From NCBI RefSeq assembly GCF_001294205.1, contig NZ_LAQT01000007.1, forward strand, positions 186,001 through 250,000: a DNA stretch of 64,000 nucleotides, in the 5' to 3' direction. This DNA is from Amantichitinum ursilacus (lineage in GTDB: Bacteria > Pseudomonadota > Gammaproteobacteria > Burkholderiales > Chitinibacteraceae). Of the stretch, positions 30,304 through 38,125 are shown in pieces. The notes beneath the pieces were generated by a model, which saw nothing but the letters and a program-made list of their open reading frames with translations, was not told the origin of the DNA and did no database searches. Position numbers and translations under genes: made by a program. Every line of letters begins with the position of its first letter. Position 1 is the stretch's first letter.

Positions 30304-31047
30304 ATGACCGTCCGCCGCCGTACCGTCCATCACACCCTCCGCGCCAGCGCCCTCAGCCTGAGCCTGTTAACCGCCCTCAGCTGTGCCCACGCTTTTGATA
30401 TCGACGTACGTGGCGAATATCGCACTGGCAGCGAGCAATATCGCAGCCGCGTCAAAGTAGTCAATGTGTGGCAAAACGGTTTTGGTGCGTCGCTGGAAGC
30501 TGGCATTTTCAATGGCCAGGGTTCAATCGACAGTTTCCGTAGCGACTACAACGAAATCGAAGCCTGGTATGCCGTGCCCGTTAGCGAGACCGTCACCCTG
30601 CTGCCCGGCGGCGTGCTGACATGGAACACCAATGGCTCCATCATCAAGCCCTATCTGCGGGCCAACTGGATGTTCTACCCCACCTGGCGTGCCGATGCGC
30701 GCGTGCGTTATGACCACGCCAATTACGATTCGGTGACCCGTCGCGGCATGCCCGCTGGCCAGGTTCACAGCAACAACGACAGCGCGTGGCAGCTCGATTT
30801 CTTCCTGACCAAATTCATCGACAAAACCGCCATCGAATACAACTACGCGTGGAACAAAAAAGACGATAGCCAGTTTGTTTACAACAACGGTCGCAACACG
30901 CAATACCTGCACAACCTGAAAGCCACTTACACGCTGCAGCCCAACCTGCTGCCGTATGCGGAGGTGGCTTATATGGGCAACACGGCCGATCTGATGAATG
31001 ACAAAAACGAATGGCGGCTGCGGCTGGGGCTGATCTCGCGCTTCTGA
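30304..31047 (+). CDS. KdgM-family outer-membrane porin
   Basis: Small monomeric beta-barrel of 247 aa, related to oligogalacturonate porin KdgM and NanC. A long basic signal peptide ends near 'ALSCAHA-F'; the mature protein opens 'DIDVRGEYRTGSEQYRSRVK' and alternates aromatic strands, closing with 'EWRLRLGLISRF' and a terminal Phe, typical of outer-membrane barrels. AGGGAG precedes the ATG. The substrate is probably an acidic or neutral oligosaccharide. The GH31 gene 65 bases downstream may act on what it imports. Confidence 0.8.
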   Translation: MTVRRRTVHHTLRASALSLSLLTALSCAHAFDIDVRGEYRTGSEQYRSRVKVVNVWQNGFGASLEAGIFNGQGSIDSFRSDYNEIEAWYAVPVSETVTLLPGGVLTWNTNGSIIKPYLRANWMFYPTWRADARVRYDHANYDSVTRRGMPAGQVHSNNDSAWQLDFFLTKFIDKTAIEYNYAWNKKDDSQFVYNNGRNTQYLHNLKATYTLQPNLLPYAEVAYMGNTADLMNDKNEWRLRLGLISRF

Positions 31048-31112
31048 TTGTGTAGGGCGGGGCCTGCGGGCTCCGCCGCTGCTGGCCCCGATTCGTTTTT
31101 CAGGATGCCGTT

Positions 31113-33539
31113 GTGCCCCAAGCTGCCTATCCCCCTGTGTTCGCCTTGCAAACGCGGCAGGGCGCATTGCTGACGCTGCGTAGTGCAGACCATGAACATC
31201 TGGCGCACATCTTTGTTCTGGAAAATGACATCTTGCGTGTGCTGGTGCTACCTGGCGCGCAACTCAAGCAGCCGCACAGCTGGGCGATCGCGCCTGGCCT
31301 GGCGGAAGTCCCCACCGCGGGCCGCGACCGTTTTGACCTCCGCGGCTTTACCCTGCCCGATTATCAGATCCGGCATTTGCCGGGCCAGTTGGTGGTAGAA
31401 ACCTGCCAGCTACGGCTGACCATTACGCTGGTAGGTTTACGCTGCCATTGGCAGAACTACCTCAACGGCGCATGGCATGACGTTGCCGCCGATCGCGCGT
31501 GTCAGAGCCTCAACTGGGGCAGTTGGGATCAGCGCGTTTATCACTATCTGCAGCACGACGAGCGACAGATGTACTTTGGCCTGGGCGAACGCAGTGGACC
31601 GTCCAACCGCGCAGGGCAGCGCTATCGCATGCAGGGCGTGGATGCCAGCGGCTACGACGCCAGCAATACCGATCCGCTGTACAAACATATCCCGTTCTAT
31701 CTGGCATGGCATTGCGACAGCGCTGCACCGGTCGGCTTCTTTTACGACACGCTGGCCGATTGCACTTTTGATATGGGGCGCGAAGTCGATGCATGTTATG
31801 GACCATCGCGCAGCTTTATCGCAGAACATGGCGATCTTGATTACTACGTCTTTGGCGGCGACAGCCTGCTGCATATCGTACAGCGCTATACCTGGCTAAC
31901 CGGGCGACCTGCCTTGATGCCGCGCTGGGCGCTCGGCTGCAGCAGCGCGGCAGTGCGTGAGCTGGCGGCGGCCGATACTCAGCGACGCGTTGATGAGTTC
32001 ATCGCCAATCGCGCGCAACACGACATGTTGTGCGATGTCGTACATCTAATATCCCGCCAACGCGATGCGGCGCATGGCCACGCGCCGACTGATCCGGTTG
32101 CGCCCGAGGATACCCAGCGCTGGCTGCGCCGCGCGCAAGACCAGGGCGTGCATTTAATCGCCGGTATCACGCCTGGCTTGCTGCATAACCACCCTCGCTT
32201 TACCGAAGCGGCAGCGCAGGGCCTGTTTATTAAAGGTTATGACGGCAAACCACAGCGGTTGCCGTTGCGCGGCGGCTCCGGCGCCTATCTCGATTTCACC
32301 CAACCCGCCACGGTGCGCTGGTGGCAAGCCGTACTCAAAACCACGCTGCTGGATGCAGGCATCAACGCGTTGCGGCTCGATGACGCCGAATACGACATCC
32401 GCAATGCGGACGCCATCGCCTATCAAGCTGGCCAGCGCGTGGCGGCATCCGAAATCAAACCGTTGCAACCGTTGCTGTCGGCGCAGGCGTCCTGCAAAGC
32501 CTTGCAGACCAGCTACCCCACCCAACGCCCGCTTCTGACATCTCGCGCGGGCTTTGCCGGCATGCAGCGTTATCTGCAAACCTGGTCCGGCGAACCGCGC
32601 GCTGGATGGGATACCTTGCGCTTTAACATCAAAATGGCGTGGGGACTGGCGCTGTGTGGGGTTTCCAATACCGGCCATGCTCTGGCGGGCAACGCGCCCG
32701 CACCGTCAGAGCGCGAACTATATCTGCGCACGCTGCAGGCCCATCTGCTTTTGCCGCGTCTGGGTTTTCAGCCTTGCACCGACGCTGGGAGCCCGCTTGC
32801 GGCGCCATGGCATGACGCCGGGTTGGTTGCGCCGTTACGGATGCTGCTGCAGTTGCGCGAGCGGCTGTTGCCGCACCTGTACCACTTGCTGTGGCGCGCC
32901 CACGCAAAGTTTGAGCCTGTAGTCCGCCCTACTTTGCTCAATTTTCCCGACGACGCAGATTGCTTTGCAGACAATGATGACTGGATGCTGGGCGCGGATT
33001 TGCTCATCGCGCCCGTCGTGCAGCCCGGCGCAACCACCCGCGCGGTTTATCTGCCGCAAGGGTGCGGCTGGTTTGACGGCTATCGCGGCAGCTATTACCC
33101 GGGCGGCCAGACGGTCACGGTGTCCGCGCAAATCACCGACCCACCGGTGCTGATGGTGCGTGCCGGCGCGATCATTGCGCTGAACACCGCCACACAATAT
33201 GGGGATGAACGTGCCGACACGCGTGGCTTTGCGCTGTATCCGCCGTCGGGCGAAGGCCAGTATTGCGGCGAATGTTTTGACGATGATGGCATTTCGCCGC
33301 TTAGCCTGGCCGCTGGCGCAGCGCATCTGTGGCGGCTGAAGCTGGACTGCCGTGATGACGCATTAAAGCTGACGCTCACGTCGCCCGACCGCTTTCGCAG
33401 CCACGAGGTGGTGACCTTGTATCTGCCGGAACAGGAAACCCGCCCGCTACGCGCCCCGGGCTGGCATGTGGCCCCGGGCGAACCCAGCGCGCCCAGTCGG
33501 AGCCTGCTTTTGGTGCGCAATAACGCCGCGCCGCCGTAA
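31113..33539 (+). CDS. Divergent glycoside hydrolase family 31 protein
   Basis: 808-aa protein with the GH31 plan: N-terminal beta-sandwich ('MYFGLGERSG', 'NTDPLYKHIPFYLAW'), catalytic barrel and C-terminal sheets ('MLGADLLIAPVV'). The nucleophile region reads 'LRLDDAEYD' (D423 by alignment). The position usually held by the acid/base Asp (WSGDN) is E494 in 'WSGEPRAGW', and the usual HDxGGF is 'HALAGN' (A523). It may be an alpha-glucosidase with altered chemistry, or catalytically weak. No signal peptide is seen. GTG 31113 follows AGGA at 7 bases. It lies just after the KdgM-like porin gene. Confidence 0.82.
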   Translation: MPQAAYPPVFALQTRQGALLTLRSADHEHLAHIFVLENDILRVLVLPGAQLKQPHSWAIAPGLAEVPTAGRDRFDLRGFTLPDYQIRHLPGQLVVETCQLRLTITLVGLRCHWQNYLNGAWHDVAADRACQSLNWGSWDQRVYHYLQHDERQMYFGLGERSGPSNRAGQRYRMQGVDASGYDASNTDPLYKHIPFYLAWHCDSAAPVGFFYDTLADCTFDMGREVDACYGPSRSFIAEHGDLDYYVFGGDSLLHIVQRYTWLTGRPALMPRWALGCSSAAVRELAAADTQRRVDEFIANRAQHDMLCDVVHLISRQRDAAHGHAPTDPVAPEDTQRWLRRAQDQGVHLIAGITPGLLHNHPRFTEAAAQGLFIKGYDGKPQRLPLRGGSGAYLDFTQPATVRWWQAVLKTTLLDAGINALRLDDAEYDIRNADAIAYQAGQRVAASEIKPLQPLLSAQASCKALQTSYPTQRPLLTSRAGFAGMQRYLQTWSGEPRAGWDTLRFNIKMAWGLALCGVSNTGHALAGNAPAPSERELYLRTLQAHLLLPRLGFQPCTDAGSPLAAPWHDAGLVAPLRMLLQLRERLLPHLYHLLWRAHAKFEPVVRPTLLNFPDDADCFADNDDWMLGADLLIAPVVQPGATTRAVYLPQGCGWFDGYRGSYYPGGQTVTVSAQITDPPVLMVRAGAIIALNTATQYGDERADTRGFALYPPSGEGQYCGECFDDDGISPLSLAAGAAHLWRLKLDCRDDALKLTLTSPDRFRSHEVVTLYLPEQETRPLRAPGWHVAPGEPSAPSRSLLLVRNNAAPP

Positions 33540-36275: not shown

Positions 36276-37781
36276 TCAGCGTCCGCCCAGCGACGCCAAG
36301 GTATCGCGCTCCGCCCGTTGCCCCGCCATTTGCTCGCGGATCAAACGCCCCAAGGTGGCAATTTCGCGCTCGGTGTCGGGCAGAAAACGATGCCCGGCAT
36401 TCAAGCGCATACAGTTGTAGAAACTGGCATCCAGGCTAAACAAGCGCCCCGGCGCAAAGCGTATGTCGTGATCAAGCGCGCGCCGCTGCAGCTCGGTACT
36501 GTCCACGCCATGCGGTAGTTCCACCCAGATCAGAATGCCGCCGGGCGCAGCCGCCATGCGGGTTTCGGGCGGGAAATGTGCTTCCACCGCCGCGCGGTGT
36601 GCGCTGGTGTAATCGGCCATGGTTCGGCGCAGCCGACGCAAATAGGGTTCGAACTGGCCACTGGCCATAAATGTGGCCAGCGTGCGCTGGAACAGCAACG
36701 GCGGCGGCTCGCCCTTGGCCATGAGCGCGTATTCAAATGCGTAACGCTGGTTACCGGTAATCGCAAAGCCTACCGACATGCCCGGCCCCACCAGAAAGCC
36801 CAGGTCCGCGCAGTAATACACATTGCCGGTGCGATCAAACGCCTTGAACGGCAGCGGCCGCGTTTTGCCAAAATACAACTCGCCCACGCTGTCGTCTTCA
36901 ATCAGCGGCACGCCGTGTTGCGCCAGCAAATCTACCGTACGACGTTTGGCGGCATCGCTCATCAAGCTGCCGGTGGGATTGGGGAAATTGGCGGTCAGCA
37001 CCGCAGCGGCGATTTTTTCGCGGCGTAGTGCAAACGCCAAGGCATCCACCGACAAACCATCGACCGGATGCGCTGGAATTTCCAGCACCTGCACGCCCAA
37101 CGTATCCAGCAGATTAAGCAGCGCCATATGGCTCGGCGACTGGATGGCCACCACATCGCCGGGTTTGGTAAACAGGCGCAAAAAGGTATGCACCGCCTCG
37201 GTTTCACCGTGCGTGATCAGCACTTCGTCGGCGTCCCAATGACAGCCAAACAGCACAGCGCGCCTCGCCAGTTGTTCGCGCAAGGCGCTAGAGCCGCCAC
37301 AGACCGAGGCGCGCGCCAGAATGCCGGGGTCGCGCCGCGCCTGCAGCGTCATGATCCGTTGCAGCGCCACGCCGGGATAACAGTCCGGATCGATCAGCGC
37401 GCGGCACAGGCGGTCATCATGGTCGCTGCGATGAAATTCGCGCATCAGCGCCCGCTGGGCCGACAGCGCTACGGGCAACGGCCGCGTGATGGTGGGCGCG
37501 GTCTGATGCGGAAAGCGCAGATGGTTGTCAGGGCGGCGCACATAAAAGCCCGAGCGTGGGCGCGCTTCGACCAGGCCCGCATCTTCCAGCAAATGCAAAG
37601 CGTGGGTGACGGTAGCGGGGCTGGCCTGGAACGATCGGCACAGATCGCGCACCGAGGGCAGCTTTTCACCGGGGCTTAACTGGCGGGTTTCAATCTCTTT
37701 TTGCAGGCGTGCAGCCAGCTCGCTGTAGCGCGTCGCACCAATACGGGGCGCTTCAGGGACCGCGTAAGCGTCTGTTTCCAT
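36276..37781 (-). CDS. MocR-type GntR/aminotransferase regulator lacking the PLP lysine
   Basis: 501-aa regulator: winged-helix GntR domain (~17-90, 'GEKLPSVRDLCRSFQASPAT') joined to a fold-type-I aminotransferase domain (~110-495). The Asn motif 'NFPNPTG' and Asp of 'IEDDSVGELYF' remain. The segment that normally reads SFSK, carrying the Schiff-base lysine, is 'CADLGFLVGPG': F329 takes the lysine position. V299 replaces the usual Tyr of EDDxY. It probably cannot bind PLP covalently and may sense another ligand or none. Target genes unknown; the 68-aa protein gene is divergent from it. Confidence 0.88.
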   Translation of the reverse strand: METDAYAVPEAPRIGATRYSELAARLQKEIETRQLSPGEKLPSVRDLCRSFQASPATVTHALHLLEDAGLVEARPRSGFYVRRPDNHLRFPHQTAPTITRPLPVALSAQRALMREFHRSDHDDRLCRALIDPDCYPGVALQRIMTLQARRDPGILARASVCGGSSALREQLARRAVLFGCHWDADEVLITHGETEAVHTFLRLFTKPGDVVAIQSPSHMALLNLLDTLGVQVLEIPAHPVDGLSVDALAFALRREKIAAAVLTANFPNPTGSLMSDAAKRRTVDLLAQHGVPLIEDDSVGELYFGKTRPLPFKAFDRTGNVYYCADLGFLVGPGMSVGFAITGNQRYAFEYALMAKGEPPPLLFQRTLATFMASGQFEPYLRRLRRTMADYTSAHRAAVEAHFPPETRMAAAPGGILIWVELPHGVDSTELQRRALDHDIRFAPGRLFSLDASFYNCMRLNAGHRFLPDTEREIATLGRLIREQMAGQRAERDTLASLGGR

Positions 37782-37918
37782 AGGCGAATAGGCACAGATT
37801 TGGCAGTGGGCAGAACTGATACTATCCAGCTTTTTTGTGCTGCGTCTATGGCCGCTGAAACGCTTTCATCACAATGACAACATCATTGGACGAAGGCGCG
37901 AGCCCGGAGGTTTTGATC

Positions 37919-38125
37919 ATGCACACCCCCACCACAACCCTGCAAACCTGCCCCACGTGTGGCGCCCGTCCGCATGTTTTTGCCCGCCTGCTGAACACAC
38001 TGCGCGGTTGGCGCAATCCGTCAGCGAGCGAAGCGCTCAGCGAAGAGCAGTTCAACGAAATGCGCTCGCTGGACGAAAATCTGAATGAACGGCGCGGTCA
38101 GGTGCACGACCGTCACTTCTTCTAA
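37919..38125 (+). CDS. Small CxxC hypothetical protein
   Basis: 68-aa protein of unknown function. ATG 37919 is preceded by GGAGG at 8 bases, an excellent ribosome site; an ATG 45 bases earlier lacks one. A 'CPTCGARP' motif near the N-terminus could bind zinc or take part in redox. The C-terminal half is polar and charged ('EALSEEQFNEMRSLDENLNE'). It is divergent from the MocR-type regulator gene and followed by its own terminator. Confidence 0.65.
   Translation: MHTPTTTLQTCPTCGARPHVFARLLNTLRGWRNPSASEALSEEQFNEMRSLDENLNERRGQVHDRHFF

Follow-up and report, generated by a model that had tools for sequence, protein, structure and literature searches.

The window, by which we mean the whole 64,000-nucleotide stretch of DNA that was analysed, carries a gene for a MocR-type regulator in which the lysine that would form a Schiff base with pyridoxal phosphate (PLP) is missing, as it is in a group of orthologues that we refer to as Lys-less. 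The gene and the parts of its product that bear on this loss are listed below.

36276..37781, minus strand: gene of the Lys-less MocR-type regulator (501 aa, uninterrupted from its ATG start)
37533..37730, minus strand: GntR-type winged helix-turn-helix (wHTH), residues 18–83 (Pfam PF00392)
36336..37427, minus strand: aminotransferase fold-type-I-like domain, residues 119–482 (PF00155 and Foldseek)
36885..36887, minus strand: Val299 at the Tyr of EDDxY (alignment; a position naturally variable among MocR clusters)
36804..36806, minus strand: Asp326 at the PLP-phosphate Ser position (Asp or Glu in 11/11 rows of the group, Ser in 45/45 paralogues)
36795..36797, minus strand: TTT, the codon for Phe329, which aligns with the Schiff-base Lys of 62 Lys-containing relatives
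36405..36407, minus strand: Arg459, equivalent to the substrate-carboxylate Arg (kept in all compared rows)

Pfam matched an intact GntR wHTH (PF00392, residues 19–81, E=7e-17) and an aminotransferase I/II domain (PF00155, residues 151–462, E=7e-13), the layout that the group has in common with the MocR/GabR subfamily of GntR regulators (GabR, PdxR, EnuR, YczR). By sequence, the nearest solved structures are LysN and related aminotransferases, with GabR and PdxR next. An AlphaFold model built from 56 aligned sequences reached a pLDDT of 93 and a pTM of 0.86 and was used in preference to one from nine sequences, which gave a pLDDT of only 68; Foldseek matched this predicted structure to LysN, with a TM of 0.87 over the target, and also to GabR and PdxR; the two regulators are matched in fold as well as in sequence. 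None of the NCBIfam MocR models (PdxR, YczR, EhuR, MocR, GabR, PtsJ) matches the protein above its curated cut-off, the top model being PdxR, which scores 194.7 bits where 320 are required, and L112, a Lys-containing MocR paralogue from the same genome, likewise falls below every one of these cut-offs. Layout and fold make the window protein a MocR, but its cofactor features set it apart from the PLP-dependent MocR regulators.

A sequence-only reading of this DNA had placed Phe, encoded by TTT, at the Schiff-base position, and the alignment with 62 Lys-containing relatives confirms this, setting CADLGFLVGPG (residues 324–334) opposite SSFTKTLAPG. That NPTG (residues 268–271) and the DNA-binding domain are intact is likewise borne out, by the alignment and by the PF00392 match. 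The same reading had drawn attention to Val299 in place of the Tyr of EDDxY; the residue is indeed Val, but the change is weak evidence by itself because GabR carries Asp here and another MocR cluster a hydrophobic residue (PMC6677901). Stronger losses that it had passed over are E214 to Gln, aromatic 218 to His, S326 to Asp and R336 to Ser.

It had also proposed collecting orthologues to see whether the loss of Lys is conserved. Position 329 reads F, A, T, M, V, L, I, I, F, T, T and A across the 12 group members, so that Lys is absent from all 12 genomes, the residue itself being varied, whereas Lys is present in each of the 62 other sequences compared and in the seven further MocR or aminotransferase-type proteins sampled by region from the same genome. 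This loss lies well beyond chance. A second possibility that it had raised, a substitute lysine elsewhere, was rejected: the only two Lys columns fixed in the group, K279 and K313, are just as invariant among Lys-containing paralogues, and the alignment holds no Lys column peculiar to the group.

Orthologues of the window gene occur in 11 other genomes at about 47–65% identity, making a group of 12 genomes that belong to three families within one order. Among 60 relatives searched, one orthologue emerged, in genome G002 (L002/L031, 64–65% identity), which reads CADLSAVIGPG, along with many paralogues of ~40% identity reading SFTK, and a 250-genome search of the order returned seven further orthologues (47–56% identity), all without Lys. 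Profile searches covered the three families as well as 399 genomes from the order and 369 from the class; in these the Lys-less gene was present in 2/43 genomes of the window's own family, in 7/10 genomes of the family holding Chitinimonas and in 3/5 genomes of a third family, and no copy was found beyond these three families in the order and class sets. Records matched by sequence place Chitinimonas prasina, C. viridis, C. taiwanensis and Parachitinimonas caeni in the group.

In a maximum-likelihood tree, all Lys-less rows fall on one side of a branch recovered in every bootstrap tree (100/100 support), and a single loss of Lys therefore suffices. This branch is long (0.85), and the tree was rooted at its midpoint. 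To call the group a clade presumes a root among the Lys-containing rows, which is likely because Lys is generally conserved in MocR proteins. The window gene and its G002 orthologue nest among rows of the Chitinimonas family, a placement that suggests transfer of the gene into the window's family.

We compared the PLP site between 11 Lys-less and 45 Lys-containing alignment rows. We take the PLP phosphate cup to correspond to S255 and R266 of aspartate aminotransferase (AAT), the ring-stacking aromatic to GabR Y205, the pyridine-nitrogen Asp to GabR D279, and the Schiff-base Lys to GabR K312 and EnuR K302. These presumed equivalences with AAT and GabR combine general background on the two proteins with PMC6677901. 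At several positions the expected residue occurs in 0/11 Lys-less and 45/45 Lys-containing rows: at E214, at the ring-stacking aromatic 218 (His in the window protein), at Ser326 (Asp or Glu in every Lys-less row) and at K329, and in 0/11 against 42/45 rows at the phosphate Arg, R336 (Ser in the window protein). Retention is partial at N268, the Asn of NPxG (4/11 against 45/45), at the pyridine Asp, D296 (7/11, including the window protein, against 45/45), and at Tyr299 (2/11 against 42/45), while R459 is present in 11/11 and 45/45 rows. Stacking, phosphate and aldimine contacts are therefore gone from every group member, and the carboxylate Arg is retained; apart from R459 and the acid at 326, the pocket varies across the 11 rows. 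The alignments strongly support a loss of covalent PLP binding in the window protein. As a separate observation, three Lys-containing paralogues from one family (L074, L076 and L078) read SFSK...SPGFSDGW, with Ser replacing the Arg that binds the phosphate, which amounts to a partial loss among PLP-type members.

The Lys-less genes are intact and constrained: all 12 are intact ORFs, and dN/dS is 0.069 for the closest Lys-less pair, while a pair of Lys-containing paralogues taken from these two genomes gives 0.044. Conservation of the wHTH is 0.80 within the group against 0.68 among Lys-containing paralogues, and that of the aminotransferase domain is 0.67 against 0.65. Group-specific wHTH residues are C48, H60, L62 and H63, the last three fixed in the recognition helix. 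Overall, the group-specific fixed residues lie mainly in the wHTH and linker, a location that gives no direct sign of a common ligand.

Upstream of the gene, comparison of promoters defined the following features.

37787..37797, minus strand: predicted operator, right half (CTGTGCCTATT), which follows the left half by 18 nt and ends 5 nt before the ATG
37816..37826, minus strand: predicted operator, left half (GATAGTATCAG), from the upstream comparison
37919..38125, plus strand: small divergent ORF, 68 aa, one CxxC, no Pfam match; possible second target

The predicted operator (37787–37826) abuts the start codon, and the upstreams of the window gene and its G002 orthologue have GATAGTATCAG-N18-CTGTGCCT in common. 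Its group-wide form, the inverted pair GATMGRYACAG-N17/18-CTGTRYCKATC, scores 17–22 of 22 in 10/12 Lys-less upstreams (each matched by at most 1/400 shuffles), values that overstate its strength because the motif came from the same upstreams on which it was scored. Better evidence comes from the fixed spacing and from the paralogue control, in which 0/60 upstreams of Lys-containing paralogues contain the motif at a score of 17 or more. The two Lys-less upstreams from which it is missing are those of G067 and G111. MocR factors use operators of repeated boxes with inverted or direct symmetry (PMC5320631), and the predicted site, an inverted pair of boxes at fixed spacing in 10/12 promoters, may be of this kind. 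The commonest MocR motif type comprises two direct boxes and one inverted (PMC5320631); four upstreams from the Chitinimonas genus group (L048–L051) have a second direct box 25 bp further. A sigma-70 promoter scan of the region found none. At 37839–37848, the upstream of the window gene also carries an element TAGACGCAGC that recurs upstream of its orthologue and, in less exact form, of other group members.

In whole-genome scans the predicted operator turned up at the promoter of the gene itself and hardly anywhere besides, a pattern indicative of local regulation directed at the gene itself; beyond the gene's own site, the scans for a regulon gave only weak, chance-level matches. The near-uniqueness of the operator leaves no regulon but the gene itself to explain its use, and this counts against the interpretation that we favour.

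We consider it likely that the window gene encodes a MocR-type regulator that is independent of PLP and autoregulates by binding the promoter of its own gene. The Schiff-base Lys would have been lost once, in an ancestor common to the relatives in the three families, and the remaining PLP site would have decayed afterwards, differently in each lineage, with the wHTH and the fold kept under purifying selection, leaving a pocket that would no longer accommodate PLP. A dimer of the regulator would bind the inverted boxes in its own promoter, and so control its own transcription and perhaps that of the divergent small ORF. Because its B6-binding site is dismantled, the regulator probably works without the family-defining cofactor. 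In EnuR K302H of Ruegeria pomeroyi the Lys of the same position is replaced, and this variant cannot hold PLP and is a constitutive repressor (PMC8739950); hence, PLP-free repression by the MocR architecture has experimental precedent, which favours a PLP-independent, self-regulating DNA-binding dimer. EnuR K302H, however, was made in the laboratory by a single substitution and keeps the remainder of its site, whereas the Lys-less group is natural and has lost most of the site.

Two accounts of the former PLP site are compatible with such a PLP-independent autoregulator. The site may hold another small molecule, such as a zwitterionic amino compound, non-covalently between R459 and the acid at 326 and thereby control operator binding, a tentative proposal for which the fixed R459 and D/E326 argue and against which the general variability of the pocket argues. 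Alternatively, the protein might be a ligand-free constitutive repressor in which the aminotransferase domain is a dimerisation scaffold only and the gene's own promoter is always held down, as by EnuR K302H. This is a sub-case of the PLP-independent reading, so that confidence in the one overlaps with confidence in the other, and taken singly we hold it to be conceivable at somewhat less than even chances. Engineered loss of Lys in EnuR did produce a constitutive repressor (PMC8739950), pocket positions vary freely among group members, and the residues fixed in this group specifically are mainly those of the wHTH and linker; but R459 and an acidic 326 are fixed in every group row, the aminotransferase domain is conserved like that of the paralogues (0.67 against 0.65), and a constitutive self-repressor without a further target has no evident purpose. 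On balance, non-covalent sensing of another small molecule appears about as likely as ligand-free repression, or slightly likelier.

The sequence-only reading had listed a different ligand, constitutive DNA binding and non-covalent PLP as its three options; the first two are both still in contention, while the third has become unlikely because the stacking aromatic and the phosphate Ser and Arg are gone. PLP or another B6 vitamer could engage the intact D296 and NPTG of the window protein within its retained fold, but this protein also lacks the Tyr225 equivalent and places an acid in the phosphate cup, and D296 and N268 are themselves lost in several group members; we therefore think such binding improbable. 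Equally doubtful, if not more so, is a heterodimer in which the window protein would be the PLP-free half and a Lys-containing MocR paralogue the other, as LCB1 is in serine palmitoyltransferase. LCB1 is a fold-type-I protein that has lost the PLP Lys as the group has, but it is an enzyme subunit and not a regulator. Fold-type-I active sites are located at dimer interfaces, and among the matches listed most genomes with the Lys-less gene also have Lys-containing paralogues; yet the paralogues among these matches are not near the Lys-less gene, their promoters lack the predicted operator, and the nearest paralogue is also found in genomes without the Lys-less gene. Sequencing error or gene decay, at which patchy presence (2/43 genomes of the window's own family) is the sole hint, was rejected, given the identical loss across 12 genomes, the intact ORFs, a dN/dS of 0.07, and a TTT codon that differs from AAA and AAG at all three positions, making a read error at 329 improbable.

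Set against the MocR/GabR subfamily, the group is distinguished by the absence of the Schiff-base Lys and of most PLP contacts. Lys-containing MocR paralogues of the same bacterial family, such as L112, which has ~40% identity and the same layout and is among the nearest Lys-containing relatives, keep SFTK and all PLP contacts, unlike the group, and have other recognition-helix residues and no such operator. Lys312 and Asp279 are reported to be conserved across all MocR clusters (PMC6677901), MocR factors are regarded almost by definition as PLP-dependent, and we found no description of a Lys-less MocR group in the open-access literature that we searched. The group would be the natural counterpart of the engineered constitutive repressor EnuR K302H. 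If this constrained branch is naturally PLP-free, the MocR architecture can regulate without its cofactor, and the branch offers a natural test of the need for PLP in dimerisation, DNA binding and effector sensing; if a new ligand is sensed, a cofactor-dependent sensor would have been converted to a cofactor-free one. The label 'PLP-dependent aminotransferase family protein' misleads for the Lys-less genes.

As for the surroundings of the gene, conserved neighbours gave no clue to a target across families, being present only among near relatives. The divergent small ORFs were rejected as one family, since a shuffle p of 0.028 is not significant after 15 comparisons and they have no Pfam match. 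A high-potential iron-sulfur protein gene (PF01355, 35832–36137) lies immediately downstream of the regulator, is read in the same direction, and had no match near the orthologue in G002. At 30304–33539, a 247-aa outer-membrane-porin-like ORF, similar in look to KdgM-type oligosaccharide porins, directly precedes an 808-aa glycosyl-hydrolase-31-like ORF; the families were assigned by eye, and the two may form a sugar-uptake pair. Finally, the Lys-containing MocR paralogue of the window's bacterial family lies a few hundred bases past an enolase-like gene and an ftsB-like frame in many genomes (L003, L013, L015, L016 and other loci) and has AACTGT-type boxes upstream, possibly marking a conserved MocR locus near a cell-division gene (gene names by eye).
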